The notes beneath the pieces are model-generated. The model saw nothing but the letters and a program-made list of their open reading frames with translations. It ran no database searches and had not been told where the DNA came from. A stretch of 64,000 nucleotides of DNA from Bacteroidota bacterium (GTDB taxonomy: Bacteria; Bacteroidota; Bacteroidia; Chitinophagales; Chitinophagaceae). The position numbers and the translations under genes were made by a program. Every line of letters starts with the position of its first letter. Positions within the stretch are counted from its first letter, which is position 1. This document shows, in pieces, positions 55,125 to 62,001 of the stretch. The stretch spans positions 124,001 through 188,000 of the forward strand of contig JAGWUV010000001.1 in NCBI GenBank assembly GCA_028875875.1, in the 5' to 3' direction.

Positions 55125-56375
55125 TTAGTGCATCGCATCCATCATAGCCAGCAGGCTCATCCATCCCATTACTGCTACCACAATCCATCCTGCGAGCTGC
55201 ATCCATAACGGATGATCATAGCCTTTCATTAATCCTTTTTTTGTGGCTGCTATCAAAACAAAGGAAAGAGCAACAGGCAATATAAATCCATTAATGGTTC
55301 CTGCGGCAACCAATAGCTGCCTGGGCTTCCCAATAAAAATAAAGATGCAGGTAGAAAGAATGATGAAAACAGAAATACAGGTTCTTTCATACCGGGCAAA
55401 CAAAGGATGAAATGTTTTGAAGAAAGAAACCGAAGTGTACGCAGCCCCTACAACAGAAGAGATGGCAGCACTCCACAACACAATACCAAAGATGTGGTAG
55501 CCCACTTCTCCGGCAGCAAACCGAAACACACTGGCAGCCGGATTATCGTGGTCAAGTATCGCTCCATGAGTCAATGTTCCCACTACGGCCAGGAACAAAA
55601 CAAACCGCATGATCGTAGAAATAACAATGCCGTTAACAGCACTTTTATTTACCTGCCGTAAGTTGTGTTGTCCTTTAATACCGGCATCCAGTAAGCGGTG
55701 TGCTCCCGAAAAAGTAATATAGCCACCAACGGTTCCACCTACAATGGTAATGATGGAGGCTGCTGAAATTTTTTCGGGAATAAATGTATGATGAACAGCT
55801 TGTAAAAAAGGCGGATGTGAACTGAATGCGATGAATAGGGTGAGCAATATTTTAAAAGTGCCTAAAAACTTTGTAAATCCATCTAGCATTTTACCTATTT
55901 CCTTCATCCAAAATAAAAGCAGTGCTGCAATACAACTGATGATAGCGCCCTGCTGAAAACTCAAACCAGTCAAAACGTTTAATCCTAAACCACAACCGGC
56001 AATATTGCCGATGTTGAATGCAAATCCTCCTATTACTACTAACACGGTTAATAAATAACCCAGGCCCGGGAAGAGTTGATTGGAAAGATCTTGTGCCCTT
56101 AATTCACTTACCGAAAGAATGCGCCAGGTATTTAACTGTGCACCGATATCGAGTAATACCGATACCAGGATCACAAATCCGAAGTTGGTCAAAAGTTGTT
56201 GGGTGAATACAGTGGTTTGGGTAAGAAAGCCAGGGCCTATGGAAGAATTGGCCATTAAAAAAGCAGCGCCTACACCGGCACCTCCCCATTGCCAAAATTT
56301 TTTGATCGATGGTTGTTTAGATGGTCCTTGTTTCAATCGAATGCTGTTGTAGGGTTTGGTGAATCTTTTTGGCAA
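55125..56375 (-). CDS. NRAMP-related transporter of the 5-oxoprolinase operon
   Basis: A 416-residue protein with about 11 membrane helices of the NRAMP fold, similar to YcsG beside B. subtilis ycsF. The canonical DPGN of helix 1 reads NSSIGPG and the MPH of helix 6 is absent, so metal transport is doubtful; it may bring in 5-oxoproline or a related compound (inference). Its start overlaps pxpA by 59 bases. Confidence 0.82.
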   Translation of the reverse strand: MPKRFTKPYNSIRLKQGPSKQPSIKKFWQWGGAGVGAAFLMANSSIGPGFLTQTTVFTQQLLTNFGFVILVSVLLDIGAQLNTWRILSVSELRAQDLSNQLFPGLGYLLTVLVVIGGFAFNIGNIAGCGLGLNVLTGLSFQQGAIISCIAALLLFWMKEIGKMLDGFTKFLGTFKILLTLFIAFSSHPPFLQAVHHTFIPEKISAASIITIVGGTVGGYITFSGAHRLLDAGIKGQHNLRQVNKSAVNGIVISTIMRFVLFLAVVGTLTHGAILDHDNPAASVFRFAAGEVGYHIFGIVLWSAAISSVVGAAYTSVSFFKTFHPLFARYERTCISVFIILSTCIFIFIGKPRQLLVAAGTINGFILPVALSFVLIAATKKGLMKGYDHPLWMQLAGWIVVAVMGWMSLLAMMDAMH

Positions 56376-57057
56376 AAGCTACGGCATGTACGCCATCGCC
56401 ATGAATACAAACTGTATCTGCTTTGATGGGAACGGCTTTGCCGGAAACACTGGTTACCGTTTGAGTGCTGATCATTTGTAGCACCTGTGCCAGTGCTTTT
56501 GATTCTTCTTCAATCAGGGCATTGGGCAGTTGGCGGGAAGTTAGGCTCCCGTTATCCTGGTAAGTTCTGTCGGCAAACACTTCACTGGCTGTTCGCAACC
56601 CGGCTTTCTCCGCTTCGCTAACCAGGTGGCTCCCGCTTAAACCGTAGAGAACGCAGGTGGGATGTACGTGTTGAATGGCATTTGCAATCACTGCACTCAT
56701 GGCCGGATCTCTTGCTGCCATATTATATAAAGCACCATGGGGCTTAACATGGTGCAGTGTGGCATTAAATGTTTTGCATATATCAAGCAGGAGATACAAC
56801 TGTTCCGCCACCAGGTGGAAGAGTTGTTCTTCCGATAGCCTTATTTCCGTTCTCCCGAAATTATTCATATCGGCAAAGCCCGGATGTGCGCCAATGGCTA
56901 CCTTATGTTGCAGAGCCAGTGCTACTGTTCTTTTCATTACATCTTCGTTGCCTGCATGATAGCCGCAGGCAATATTGGTACTGCTGATATACGGCATAAT
57001 ATCCGCATCGGTGGCAAACCCTTCTCCCATATCGCAGTTCAGGTCAATGTATGCCAT
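56317..57057 (-). CDS. pxpA: 5-oxoprolinase subunit PxpA (LamB/YcsF)
   Basis: A 246-residue LamB/YcsF protein beginning MAYIDLNCDMGEG at 57057; a longer frame to 57219 would sit inside pxpC. Conserved NIACGYHAG and HPGFADMNNFGR segments are present. PxpA works with PxpBC to open 5-oxoproline to glutamate using ATP. Confidence 0.94.
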   Translation of the reverse strand: MAYIDLNCDMGEGFATDADIMPYISSTNIACGYHAGNEDVMKRTVALALQHKVAIGAHPGFADMNNFGRTEIRLSEEQLFHLVAEQLYLLLDICKTFNATLHHVKPHGALYNMAARDPAMSAVIANAIQHVHPTCVLYGLSGSHLVSEAEKAGLRTASEVFADRTYQDNGSLTSRQLPNALIEEESKALAQVLQMISTQTVTSVSGKAVPIKADTVCIHGDGVHAVAFAKKIHQTLQQHSIETRTI

Positions 57058-58042
57058 AAGTGGTGAAATATTCTTGTAACCGTAAGATACAGGCATTTTG
57101 CAGTTGCTGCAAATGCTGTTCTTGTTCAACATAAGCATCTTCTGCTTCCTGTTGGGTAACCCATTTGAAAGTGATGGAATCGTTGGCGGTAAGCTGTGCC
57201 AGCGTAGGAATATCGGCACTAATTACATGGGCTATTCTTGGGTAGCCACCTGTTGTTTGATGATCGGCCATTAGAATGATAAGCTGCCCGTCTGCCAAAA
57301 TTTGTATCGTGCCTTTGGTAATACCCGTTGATAACATGGGTTGTGCAGGAACCGCTATTGCGGGGCCTTTCATCCGGTAGCCCATGCGGTCGCTTTTGGA
57401 AGTGATTTGAAATGAGCTTGCTGTGAATAACTGGATGGCTTCTTCAGTGAGTAACGACAACTCTTTACCCTGTATGACCTTTATTACTTTATCATTTGTA
57501 TAGAAATCCCTCGTTTCAATTTTCCAGTTGGCTTGTTCGGCATCAGTATCTTTCAAAACTGAAGAGAAGCAATGATGTTCCTGTAAAGAAAGTTCATCGT
57601 TCTTCTGTAAATACCTTCCTTTATAACCGCCGGCGCCGGCTTTGAGATGAGTACTGTAACTGTTCAGCCAGTGTTCCAGGGTAAAGCCTCCTTTAACAGC
57701 AAGATAGGCCCTGGCCCCTTTTATGGGTTTGGTGAACTGAAGCACACAGTTTTTTTGAATGATGACCGGCGTATGTGTTGCAATGGGTATATCGTTGATC
57801 ATCGCACCAAAATCGGCACCTGCAATAGCCAGGCAGGCTTGTTGTTTGAAGAGGAATACCGAAGCGGGGAAATGTAATTCTATCACTGCTGCCGTGGGAT
57901 CGTTGCCTACCAGTATATTGGCCAGTTGTATTGCAATAGTATCCATGGCCCCGGTTGGATTGATGCCCGTATGCTGGTAGCCGAAGCGGCCGGTATCCTG
58001 TATGCTGTCGGCAATGCCTTGTTTTACGATGAGTATACTCAC
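57044..58042 (-). CDS. pxpC: 5-oxoprolinase subunit PxpC
   Basis: A 332-residue protein of the biotin-dependent carboxyltransferase-like (KipA/AHS2) family, with DTGRFGYQHTGINPTGAMD near the N-terminus. It overlaps pxpB by 4 bases and pxpA by 14. Forms the ATP-dependent 5-oxoprolinase with PxpA and PxpB. Confidence 0.94.
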   Translation of the reverse strand: MSILIVKQGIADSIQDTGRFGYQHTGINPTGAMDTIAIQLANILVGNDPTAAVIELHFPASVFLFKQQACLAIAGADFGAMINDIPIATHTPVIIQKNCVLQFTKPIKGARAYLAVKGGFTLEHWLNSYSTHLKAGAGGYKGRYLQKNDELSLQEHHCFSSVLKDTDAEQANWKIETRDFYTNDKVIKVIQGKELSLLTEEAIQLFTASSFQITSKSDRMGYRMKGPAIAVPAQPMLSTGITKGTIQILADGQLIILMADHQTTGGYPRIAHVISADIPTLAQLTANDSITFKWVTQQEAEDAYVEQEQHLQQLQNACILRLQEYFTTYGIH

Positions 58043-58752
58043 TTTTTCTTTTTCAGGTGATAAAATGTTTCAATGCTGATAGGTGTAAACCGTACCAAAT
58101 TGCCGGCCTGCAATAAAACAGGATTTGTTTTTTCCGCATCAAATAACTGCACAGGCGTTTGGCCGATAATATTCCAGCCACCGGGCGATTCCAGGGGGTA
58201 AATACCTGTTTGCCTGTCGGCAATGCCTACACTTCCTGCCGCTACTTTTGTCCGGGGTTCTGTTTTTCTCGGCATGGCAATTTTTTCATCTACCATTCCC
58301 ATATAAGGAAAACCGGGTAAGAACCCCGTCATAAATACACGGTACGTTGTACTGCTGTGTATGCGGATGATCTCTTCAACGGGTATTTGTTTTATTTCAG
58401 CCATTTCATGCAGGTCGACCCCCAAAGAAATATCATAACAAACAGGGATGTTGATGAGTGCTGTTTTCTCTTCCTGCACCTGTATATCGTGTGAAAGGAT
58501 TTTCTCGAGTTCCTTCCTGATGAATTGTTCCGCAGAAGGATATTTTTCCCTGATCCTTAGTATATCATAGCAAACGGTAACACTGCTGTAGGCAGGAATA
58601 ATATCCCGTACGCCTAAGATCTTTCTTTGCTGTACTGTATGAAAAACAGCAATGACAATCTGGTTGGTTTCCACGGAAATGGTATTGCCAAAGCTAATGG
58701 TGATGGCATTGTCGCCAACAGTATACAATTCATATCCGGATGGAAGGAGCAT
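58039..58752 (-). CDS. pxpB: 5-oxoprolinase subunit PxpB
   Basis: A 237-residue KipI/AHS1 protein with GFLPGFPYMG and the C-terminal PGGWNIIGQTP segments. It is the first gene of the pxpBCA-transporter operon. Confidence 0.94.
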   Translation of the reverse strand: MLLPSGYELYTVGDNAITISFGNTISVETNQIVIAVFHTVQQRKILGVRDIIPAYSSVTVCYDILRIREKYPSAEQFIRKELEKILSHDIQVQEEKTALINIPVCYDISLGVDLHEMAEIKQIPVEEIIRIHSSTTYRVFMTGFLPGFPYMGMVDEKIAMPRKTEPRTKVAAGSVGIADRQTGIYPLESPGGWNIIGQTPVQLFDAEKTNPVLLQAGNLVRFTPISIETFYHLKKKK

Positions 58753-59227
58753 AGTGTTACAAGGTACGAAAAATAAAGAAGGCGGAGAGGGAGGGTAACA
58801 GTTGTTATTCCATTGGTTTTGAAATACTTATGCTAACGTAGGTGCGTTTGTTAAATATGATAACCCATTACTGCCTTTTTTATTAAAAGTTTCTTGCACA
58901 TAGGGGGCTGTATAATCCCGGATCGGAATAGAAGGCATTCAAGATCAGTATACACCCACTACATAACCATATCAAAACACTTGTGATGTGGTTTAATGTG
59001 CGGTTGATGTGGATTTGATGTGGGTTTGATCCGATAATGCCTTGAGCATAAATAAGTTGGAATTGCTGTACTCCTGAAGTAAAAATAGATGGTTGTATTG
59101 ATAATCAATTGATTAGGCGAATTGTGACGGATGTGATACTCTTGTGTTGTTACTTTAACTCAAATATTTTTAAAGTAATGCAGATACAGTAGAAAAGCCT
59201 GTGAAAGATTTGATAGCAGATAGTGCT
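58753..59227. other. Intergenic region with phased repeats
   Basis: This 475-base stretch contains no convincing gene. It has ATGTG cores every 10-11 bases (58986-59022), a 12-bp palindrome aatcaattgatt near 59103, and a 7-bp inverted repeat (actttaa/ttaaagt) near 59153-59177 that may end the GH5-like gene. Confidence 0.5.
58986..59033. repeat. Helically phased ATGTG repeats
   Basis: ATGTG occurs at 58986, 58996, 59007 and 59018, inside degenerate ttgATGTGg units, with a fifth partial unit (gatccg) at 59028. The 10-11 base step equals one DNA turn. Confidence 0.6.
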
Positions 59228-60517
59228 TTACTGTTTCACTATTTTTTGCGTGTACCTGCTACCGTCTGCGGCACGTAAAATGATGATCCAAACACCGGGG
59301 GGTAGGGTAGACAGGTTGATGACATTTTTATTGCCGGTAATGGTTCCGGTATACACCCTTCTGCCCACCGCATCGATCACTTCGGCAGACTGGTAATTGT
59401 TGCAATTGCCCTGGTCTATGGTAAGCAGGGAGCGTACGGGATTGGGATAGAAATAAATTTGCGGGATGACCTGGTAACTGCCTTTCGGCGTATCACAGGG
59501 CGTGTATGGGTATTTCTGCAAAACCTGCATTTGCATTTTATCGGCACCCGTACTATCGGGCTCAACGGATAAAGCATAGTTTTTCCACCAGGGGCCCGCA
59601 GCCCAGTAGGTTGCATTTACACAGTTGGCACTGAGGTATTGTAAAAAATTATCCATCAGGCTCAGCCATCGGGAATCTGTATCGGGAATACCATAGGAAC
59701 CGATCATGCCACGTTTATTGTTCTTTTTCAGCCATTCTACAAAAGGTTTGGCCCTTCGTACCCCAGCCTCCACATCTGCACCAATGGAATCGAAAGAATA
59801 TTGCGGGTAATTCCCTACCCCATCTTTATCAAAAAAGATATGGGCTTCGTAAATCAGTTTATTGGAAGGGTCGTATATCTTTCGAAGTATATCATTGCAT
59901 TGTTCCCAGCATTCGGTGAGTGAATATTTTTCGCCTTCTACAATAATATTTTTGCTTTTATCAATATCCCTGATGGCGTACAACACTTCCTGTGCGGCCA
60001 GTATCCAAACATAATAGCCCAGGTCTAAAGGCTGGTTCATAATGTCGTAACCGTAAATATTGGTCTTGTTTTTAAAGTAAGTAGCCAGCTTTACCCAAAC
60101 GTCTACAAAGCTGGATTGCGGAACAAGGGTGGTGCCTATCTTGTAATTACTGTCGTTCATCCGGTAGGCCCCATAGTTATGCATGTCTAAAATTACCTGC
60201 ATATTTTTTGCGGCACAGGTATCCAGGAAACTGCCGATCCTAAGTAATTCGGTGGTATCGAGGGGGCCGTTGAGTTGATGTTGCACCCTTTCCCAGCGAA
60301 AAGGAAGGCGTATCAATCCCAATCCCTTTGAAGCAAAATAATTTACCTCTGCTCCGGTAGGATAAGTGTAATCTGTTTGGTAAACACCAGGCATATTGGT
60401 TTGCCCGAATTCGGCCCCGGCGAGGTTTACACCATAAGGAAGTGTATCCCTGAGCGTTGCAGCAGTAGCTGAAAAAAACAAAAAAAGTATAGAAAATAAA
60501 ATAAATGCTTGCTTCAT
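59228..60517 (-). CDS. Secreted GH5-like protein lacking both catalytic glutamates, with T9SS sorting domain
   Basis: 429 residues. The signal peptide ends near SATAA, followed by a GH5 cellulase fold (about 25-350) and a type IX C-terminal sorting domain (YFYPNP to KIVKQ). Substrate-site motifs are kept: RLPFRWERVQ, LDMHNYG, YEAH, YWAAGPWW. The acid/base motif NEP reads NQP (Gln162, codon cag) and the nucleophile motif GEYG reads GSYG (Ser274, codon tcc). Both glutamates are gone, so normal hydrolysis is not expected; glycan binding is a plausible role. The frame is intact, so this is not simple decay. Confidence 0.88.
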   Translation of the reverse strand: MKQAFILFSILFLFFSATAATLRDTLPYGVNLAGAEFGQTNMPGVYQTDYTYPTGAEVNYFASKGLGLIRLPFRWERVQHQLNGPLDTTELLRIGSFLDTCAAKNMQVILDMHNYGAYRMNDSNYKIGTTLVPQSSFVDVWVKLATYFKNKTNIYGYDIMNQPLDLGYYVWILAAQEVLYAIRDIDKSKNIIVEGEKYSLTECWEQCNDILRKIYDPSNKLIYEAHIFFDKDGVGNYPQYSFDSIGADVEAGVRRAKPFVEWLKKNNKRGMIGSYGIPDTDSRWLSLMDNFLQYLSANCVNATYWAAGPWWKNYALSVEPDSTGADKMQMQVLQKYPYTPCDTPKGSYQVIPQIYFYPNPVRSLLTIDQGNCNNYQSAEVIDAVGRRVYTGTITGNKNVINLSTLPPGVWIIILRAADGSRYTQKIVKQ

Positions 60518-60632: not shown

Positions 60633-60705
60633 GTCTTCGTAGCTCAGTTGGTAGAGCAATTGACTCTTAATCAATGGGTCCAGAGTTCGAGTCTCTGCGG
60701 GGACA
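60633..60705 (+). tRNA. tRNA-Lys (anticodon CTT)
   Basis: A full 73-base cloverleaf: acceptor GTCTTCG/CGGGGAC, D arm GCTC/GAGC, anticodon stem ATTGA/TCAAT with loop CTCTTAA (CTT at 60666-60668), T arm CAGAG/CTCTG with TTCGAGT loop. CCA is not encoded. Confidence 0.95.
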
Positions 60706-60720
60706 CAATGAAAAAAACAA

Positions 60721-60983: not shown

Positions 60984-60998
60984 TTTTGTTTATTTTTG
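60968..60998 (+). promoter_or_regulatory. arsR promoter
   Basis: TTTG at 60968-60971, 19 bases, TATTTTTG at 60991-60998. Start of transcription near 61003, about 10 bases before the ATG. Confidence 0.7.
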
Positions 60999-61012
60999 GT
61001 AAAACAGAAAAT

Positions 61013-61384
61013 ATGAGCGCCTGCATCCGTTTATATGCCGATCCTGTTCAGATTAAAGCATGTAGAAAAAAAGTGGAGAATACAGCCAATGCTTTTTCTC
61101 AAACGTCATCCGTTCTTTCCTTAGCAGGGAATGATATACGACTTAAAATATTGTATTTGCTGGAAGAAGAAAAAGAGCTTTGCCCATGCGATTTGAGCGA
61201 TATATTGAATATGAGTATCCCTGCCATCTCTCAACACTTGCGAAAAATGAAAGACGGTGGGATTATCAAAGCCCGTAAAGAGGGGCAAACAATATTTTAT
61301 TCTCTCAAAGCCGAGCATTTGAAAATGCTTCGCTCATTATTCAAATACATTAATGAATTAAATCTAAAATTAGAATTGGTATGA
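61013..61384 (+). CDS. ArsR/SmtB family metal-responsive repressor
   Basis: A 123-residue winged helix protein with the ELCPCDL metal site on the recognition helix (compare ELCVCDL of ArsR) and HTH MSIPAISQHLRKM. The start at 61013 fits the promoter. It overlaps merTP by 4 bases. The inducer is probably Hg(II), As(III) or a similar thiophilic ion. Confidence 0.9.
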   Translation: MSACIRLYADPVQIKACRKKVENTANAFSQTSSVLSLAGNDIRLKILYLLEEEKELCPCDLSDILNMSIPAISQHLRKMKDGGIIKARKEGQTIFYSLKAEHLKMLRSLFKYINELNLKLELV

Positions 61385-62001
61385 ATAATAAATCAAGCAA
61401 TAACACTTTAGTAGCAGGTTTGATTGCTGGATTTGCAGCATCGCTTTGCTGTATTACACCTGTGTTGGCTCTATTAGGGGGCGTCAGCGGTCTTGCCTCT
61501 TCTTTTTCATGGATTATGCCTTACCGTCTATACTTGATTGGTTTAACGGTTGCCATCTTTGCATTTGCGTGGTATCAGAAACTTAAACCCAAAAAACAAG
61601 TTGCTTGTGATTGCGAAACAGAGAACAAAAAATCATTCTGGCAATCAAAAACATTTTTAGCTATTGTTACTGCGTTTGCTGCGGTATTGGTTGCATTTCC
61701 TTATTATGCAAAAATGTTTTACGGCAAAACACAAGAAATGAAAGTGATTGTGGTTGACAAAAAGAATATTCAAACTGTTCAGCTCAACATTAGTGGTATG
61801 GATTGCGAAGCCTGCACAACGGGCATCAACAATAAACTTTTAAAAACAAATGGCGTAATTGAAGCTAATACATCTTATAATAATGAAAATGCTGTTGTGA
61901 GATTTGACAATTCAAAAACATCGGTTGACAGTCTTACTAACATTGTAAATAATACCGGCTACAAAGTAATTTCATCAATAACTATCAGTAAGTATAAGTA
62001 A
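61381..62001 (+). CDS. merTP: Mercuric transport protein MerTP (MerT-MerP fusion)
   Basis: 206 residues. MerT-like membrane part with the Cys pair SLCCITPVLAL near 20 and about three helices, then a C-terminal MerP-like HMA domain with GMDCEACTTGI near 140. It moves Hg(II) from the periplasm inward in mercury operons. No merA is seen in the window. Confidence 0.88.
   Translation: MNNKSSNNTLVAGLIAGFAASLCCITPVLALLGGVSGLASSFSWIMPYRLYLIGLTVAIFAFAWYQKLKPKKQVACDCETENKKSFWQSKTFLAIVTAFAAVLVAFPYYAKMFYGKTQEMKVIVVDKKNIQTVQLNISGMDCEACTTGINNKLLKTNGVIEANTSYNNENAVVRFDNSKTSVDSLTNIVNNTGYKVISSITISKYK

Follow-up and report, generated by a model that had tools for sequence, protein, structure and literature searches.

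A GH5_5-like protein of Chitinophagaceae with a type IX sorting tail and three replaced catalytic residues

Family-based annotation would call the product of the gene at 59228..60517 of the window a cellulase, where the window is the whole 64,000-nucleotide stretch of Bacteroidota DNA that was analysed. The protein belongs to a clade found in Chitinophagaceae genomes and is probably secreted, and the locus raises the question of whether it cleaves glucan at all or has been retained for another purpose. An earlier note on this DNA had proposed a type IX-secreted GH5 homologue that lost both catalytic glutamates and was selected for a non-hydrolytic role.

Gene, fold and export signals

The interval given in the earlier note stands, and the gene is here assigned to the minus strand, where an ATG at 60517 and a stop at 59228 delimit a product of 429 amino acids. 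Translation, Pfam and phmmer together describe a pseudo-endoglucanase gene composed of a GH5_5-like domain and a type IX secretion system (T9SS) tail. Inspection of the N-terminus reveals a likely Sec signal peptide, MKQAFILFSILFLFFSATAA, at residues 1-20 (60458..60517, minus strand), in which a hydrophobic core precedes small residues. The GH5 (beta/alpha)8 domain spans residues 24-341 (59495..60448, minus strand), with the Cellulase/GH5 family PF00150 matching residues 31-308 (E 1.4e-33). A T9SS type A sorting domain occupies residues 357-427 (59237..59449, minus strand), where the Por_Secre_tail match (PF18962, residues 357-427, E 6e-9) and TIGR04183 both exceed their cut-offs. T9SS cargo was recognised by a C-terminal sorting domain together with SprA in the genome, and the host genome does encode this translocon (SprA_N E 8.9e-159). 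The GH5 homology, signal-like N-terminus and sorting tail described earlier are thus borne out by Pfam, TIGR04183 and inspection.

Homology places the protein in GH5_5, given PF00150 and best PDB sequence and fold matches that include GH5_5 enzymes, whose subfamily labels were taken from PMC8900817 and PMC3526467. In phmmer comparisons, the protein matches P. stutzeri Cel5A (4lx4) at E 8e-76 and RBcel1 at E about 1e-72. Its AlphaFold model (pLDDT 77, pTM 0.73; matched to 4lx4 at Z 41.9 over 314 residues and 2.2 A) aligns so well with the former that the barrel appears complete. The fold is common to the GH5_5 endoglucanases P. stutzeri Cel5A (4lx4/6r2j), RBcel1 (4ee9) and T. aurantiacus Cel5A (1gzj), with Z of 37-42 and 31-42% identity in structural alignments, and the Arg, His, Asn, His and Trp positions match. 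Unlike these enzymes, the window protein has Gln, Ser and Phe in place of the acid/base, nucleophile and supporting Tyr, and it carries a T9SS tail.

Replaced and retained residues of the active site

Residue roles in RBcel1 (acid/base E135, nucleophile E245 and Y201) were taken from PMC8900817. Alignment to GH5_5 crystal-structure sequences places Gln162 (CAG, 60032..60034, minus strand, as are all codons given here) of an NQP motif at the acid/base position, equivalent to E135 in the NEP motif of strand beta-4. Ser274 (TCC, 59696..59698) of a GSYG motif takes the place of the beta-7 nucleophile E245. Both substitutions had been read correctly from the letters of the gene. A third was missed: Phe228 (TTT, 59834..59836) lies where the conserved nucleophile-supporting Tyr, Y201 of RBcel1, is expected. 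The earlier count of two separate losses must accordingly be raised to three catalytic residues. Each replacement is present in 7/7 members of the clade described below, and the Phe228 position is Tyr in 60/60 comparison rows.

The remainder of the -1 subsite is that of an active GH5 hydrolase, with Arg70 (60308..60310), His113 (60179..60181), Asn161, the N of NEP (60035..60037), His226 (59840..59842) and Trp305 (59603..59605) all kept in the alignment. Of the Arg, His, Tyr and Trp residues previously listed as remaining, only the Tyr is lost. The possibility that the true catalytic glutamates lie elsewhere in the protein, raised beforehand as the outcome that would overturn the reading, is ruled out by sequence and fold alignments that fix both positions, and these alignments place no clade-specific acidic residue at any active-site column. 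Beyond the -1 subsite, W171 of the RBcel1 +1/+2 subsite aligns to Tyr198 in the window protein and to Arg in clade members G224 and G173; because W171 is not retained, the ligand, or the affinity for cello-oligosaccharides, may be altered relative to RBcel1. Helix 5 opens with a clade-specific, invariant CWxxC motif made up of Cys203 and Cys207, the former aligning to the +2 subsite residue Arg176 of RBcel1.

A clade with its paralogues and neighbours

A contig scan recovered three loci in Bacteroidota metagenome-assembled genomes (MAGs) with the same NQP/SS motifs and a sorting tail, each adjoining a GH5 paralogue with both Glu (L001, L002 and L003, counted once together with G224, G075 and G271). 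After a search of 394 family genomes, the clade comprises seven members: the window protein, G173, G224, G075, G271, G150 and G060. Proteins with Gln and Ser at these sites, which the earlier note had suggested looking for, are present in seven genomes of four genera, the window's own included, with identity of about 55% across genera. No further member with Q/F/S was found among 396 genomes of the order or 395 of the phylum; this confinement to four genera rules out a phylum-wide trend. At eight diagnostic positions all seven read RHNQHFSW, whereas nearly all other rows have E/Y/E. A maximum-likelihood tree, built after columns 162, 228 and 274 were removed from the alignment, joins the seven in one clade (support 100/97). 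All seven carry the T9SS sorting tail, which is found on no other Chitinophagaceae row, and six of the seven have a full-length open frame.

Inspection of conservation across the family indicates where the clade has changed. Of 74 columns conserved at 90% or more in the 60 other family rows, only 162, 228, 274 and 234 are lost, and the first three are catalytic (hypergeometric P about 6e-5, a descriptive value in which related columns and sequences are treated as independent). This pattern looks like a targeted loss of chemistry with no general erosion. Codons for Gln162 (CAG/CAA) and Ser274 (TCC/TCG/TCT) vary synonymously across the clade; the amino acids are therefore kept while their codons drift. 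Sequencing error or chance is ruled out by the presence of Q/F/S with differing codons in seven separately assembled genomes. Pairwise dN/dS (NG86) for G224/G075 is 0.067 for the clade gene; its tandem partner gives 0.112 and a third paralogue 0.064. The G150/G060 pair gives 0.157 for the clade gene. Clade-wide conservation and low dN/dS support selection to retain the protein, which upholds that part of the earlier proposal; nothing specific points to the adhesion or decoy roles that it had also named.

Paralogues within Chitinophagaceae present the mirror image. In this family, 51 rows have E/Y/E without R/H/N, eight have R/H/N without E/Y/E, one has both and four have neither, counts that are descriptive since related sequences are treated as independent. 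The eight R/H/N-only rows are the seven clade members and G095. Most paralogues, such as that at L079:9116-10213, keep E/Y/E and have lost the Arg, often the His and often the Asn of the -1 subsite; judged by these residues, they are not ordinary cellulases either. One example, a GH5_5 paralogue lacking the tail, reads QQSEHYEW, and the substrate of such paralogues may be unusual. Within this family, genus g109 shows another loss that is independent of the first (L103:974-2203, L104:863-2113, L119 and L121): the nucleophile Glu is Gln (GQFG), W305 is Ser and the acid/base Glu is kept. In Pseudomonas (L006, L007, L008 and L009), tandem GH5 modules occur in which the second has DIMGKP for NEP and LDNGG for HNYG and keeps the nucleophile Glu; here a module that is probably non-catalytic follows one that looks active.

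The genomic setting also links the members. In the window, pxpB-pxpC-pxpA (5-oxoprolinase) and an Nramp-like gene lie downstream of the pseudo-GH5 gene (55125..58752, minus strand). The subunit gene pxpB is next on the same strand in the window, G150/G060 and G173; the two genes are separated by about 36 nt in G173, by 58 nt in G150 and by 475 nt in the window. In the window and G150/G060, pxpC, pxpA and the Nramp-like gene also follow. These common downstream genes, which serve as a synteny marker, support orthology. No carbohydrate-utilisation genes stand next to the window gene. In five genomes (three of genus g75, G173 and G095), an E/Y/E paralogue stands immediately upstream of the clade gene; this partner is not an intact canonical cellulase, as E/Y/E is kept but Arg is changed to Asn and Asn to Ser. 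Other features of the window include a tRNA-Lys upstream of the pseudo-GH5 gene (60633-60706), short repeated GATGTGG-like units between it and pxpB (58983-59030), and an ArsR-type regulator with, after it, a fusion of a MerT-like protein and a heavy-metal-associated domain (60986-62001).

Two copies are damaged. The G271 copy (L078:8522-9757) lacks 29 residues in frame after NQP. The G095 copy (L077:1-904), from the same genus as G173, is frameshifted at a contig end, keeps NEP and has SSFG and HCFF. Its grouping with the clade has support of 100/99, but its position outside the seven members is weakly supported (85/36). With NEP kept and the nucleophile and Tyr lost, it is a possible intermediate; if the placement holds, nucleophile and Tyr would have been lost before the acid/base. 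Either damaged copy could be a MAG assembly error. Given the deletion and the frameshift, some lineages may be able to do without the gene, and the damage weakens a strict reading in which it is needed everywhere.

A probable glucan-binding role and its alternatives

Our favoured explanation, which we consider probable, is that the protein is a T9SS-exported pseudo-endoglucanase, descended from a GH5_5 cellulase and retained to bind glucan rather than cleave it. Loss of hydrolysis in the clade is very likely, judging from the residues present: retaining hydrolysis is very unlikely because Q, F and S replace E, Y and E, and the engineered E135Q change alone leaves RBcel1 severely impaired (PMC8900817). 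That same variant was crystallised with cellotriose bound, and the RBcel1 Y201F change stabilises the glycosyl-enzyme intermediate (PMC8900817). Engineered Ta_Cel5A E133Q/Y200F (7r28) and RBcel1 E135Q and Y201F reproduce in the laboratory two of the three replacements found here in nature; unlike the window clade, these variants are designed and keep the nucleophile. Because the -1 subsite residues are kept, glucan binding is the most economical role. In the sequence of events that we envisage, a GH5_5 cellulase in Chitinophagaceae would have given rise to the pseudo-endoglucanase, which would be passed from Sec to the type IX system for export, with the sorting tail expected to give release or cell-surface anchoring. 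The barrel cleft would still accommodate a chain of beta-1,4-glucan via R70, H113, N161, H226 and W305; with nucleophile, supporting Tyr and acid/base absent, the chain would remain uncut. That is to say, the protein may act as a glucan binder in capture, attachment or sensing, with its beta-glucan binding, surface location and purpose all inferred. Points against this reading are the two damaged copies, the exchange at the W171 position and the absence of carbohydrate-utilisation genes beside the window gene.

Non-catalytic GH5 proteins are already established, namely GH5_30, a Xanthomonas GH5_1 subgroup, GH5_8-like lipoproteins and Rsi24C (Aspeborg 2012, PMC3526467). The first three are, like the window protein, natural GH5 proteins without complete catalytic machinery, but they belong to other subfamilies and architectures (expansin/CBM63 fusions, lipoproteins). 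The window clade is set apart from them by their descriptions, and among solved structures it lies nearest to GH5_5 enzymes. The biosensor Rsi24C-GH5 of C. thermocellum offers a precedent in being a natural GH5 domain without the acid/base, which binds crystalline cellulose outside the cell (PMC3526467); it is an anti-sigma fusion, whereas the window protein stands alone with a T9SS tail. No GH5_5 clade is listed among the non-catalytic groups of PMC3526467, and open-licence papers on GH5 pseudoenzymes and on GH5_5 in Chitinophagaceae yielded no prior description of a GH5_5-derived, type IX-exported clade.

A dead barrel might instead serve in protein-protein contacts as a scaffold, inhibitor-binding decoy or receptor, in the manner of klotho or xylanase-inhibitor proteins. 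Pseudoglycosidases with such roles are known (PMC7828330; PMC3526467), and the clade-specific cysteine pair and the tandem with an E/E-retaining paralogue in five genomes would fit. We regard this role as unlikely: none of the R, H, N, H and W residues that contact sugar would be needed for it, yet all are kept, and the tandem partner, which lacks a sorting tail, probably resides in the periplasm, so that the two are not expected to meet. The two damaged copies invite the view that the gene is a functionless, decaying relic of a secreted cellulase. This is improbable in light of dN/dS of 0.07-0.16, an open frame that is full-length in 6/7 members, persistence in four genera with copies about 55% identical and losses concentrated at catalytic columns.

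It is more doubtful still that the protein remains an enzyme, working by an unconventional mechanism or with an activated glycosyl donor. Precedents are GH1 myrosinase, which has Gln at its acid/base site, and engineered glycosynthases that have had their nucleophile changed to Ser. Aspeborg et al. also allow for "alternate mechanisms" in such proteins (PMC3526467). Against this stand the joint absence of acid/base, nucleophile and supporting Tyr, the lack of a clade-specific acidic residue at any active-site column and the severe effect of E135Q by itself on RBcel1 (PMC8900817).

The favoured glucan-binding explanation admits a speculative extension, to which we give little weight, in which GH5_5 has split in Chitinophagaceae between an exported dead lineage that keeps R/H/N and probably periplasmic lineages that keep E/Y/E without R/H/N. 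The exported pseudoenzyme would then serve as a dedicated receptor for beta-glucan at the cell surface, and might supply or signal to the altered periplasmic paralogues. More broadly, a conserved clade, three catalytic replacements, a possible intermediate and oppositely diverged paralogues together provide a natural test of enzyme-to-binder evolution. If binding is confirmed, the protein would be a T9SS-exported glucan receptor built from a hydrolase barrel.
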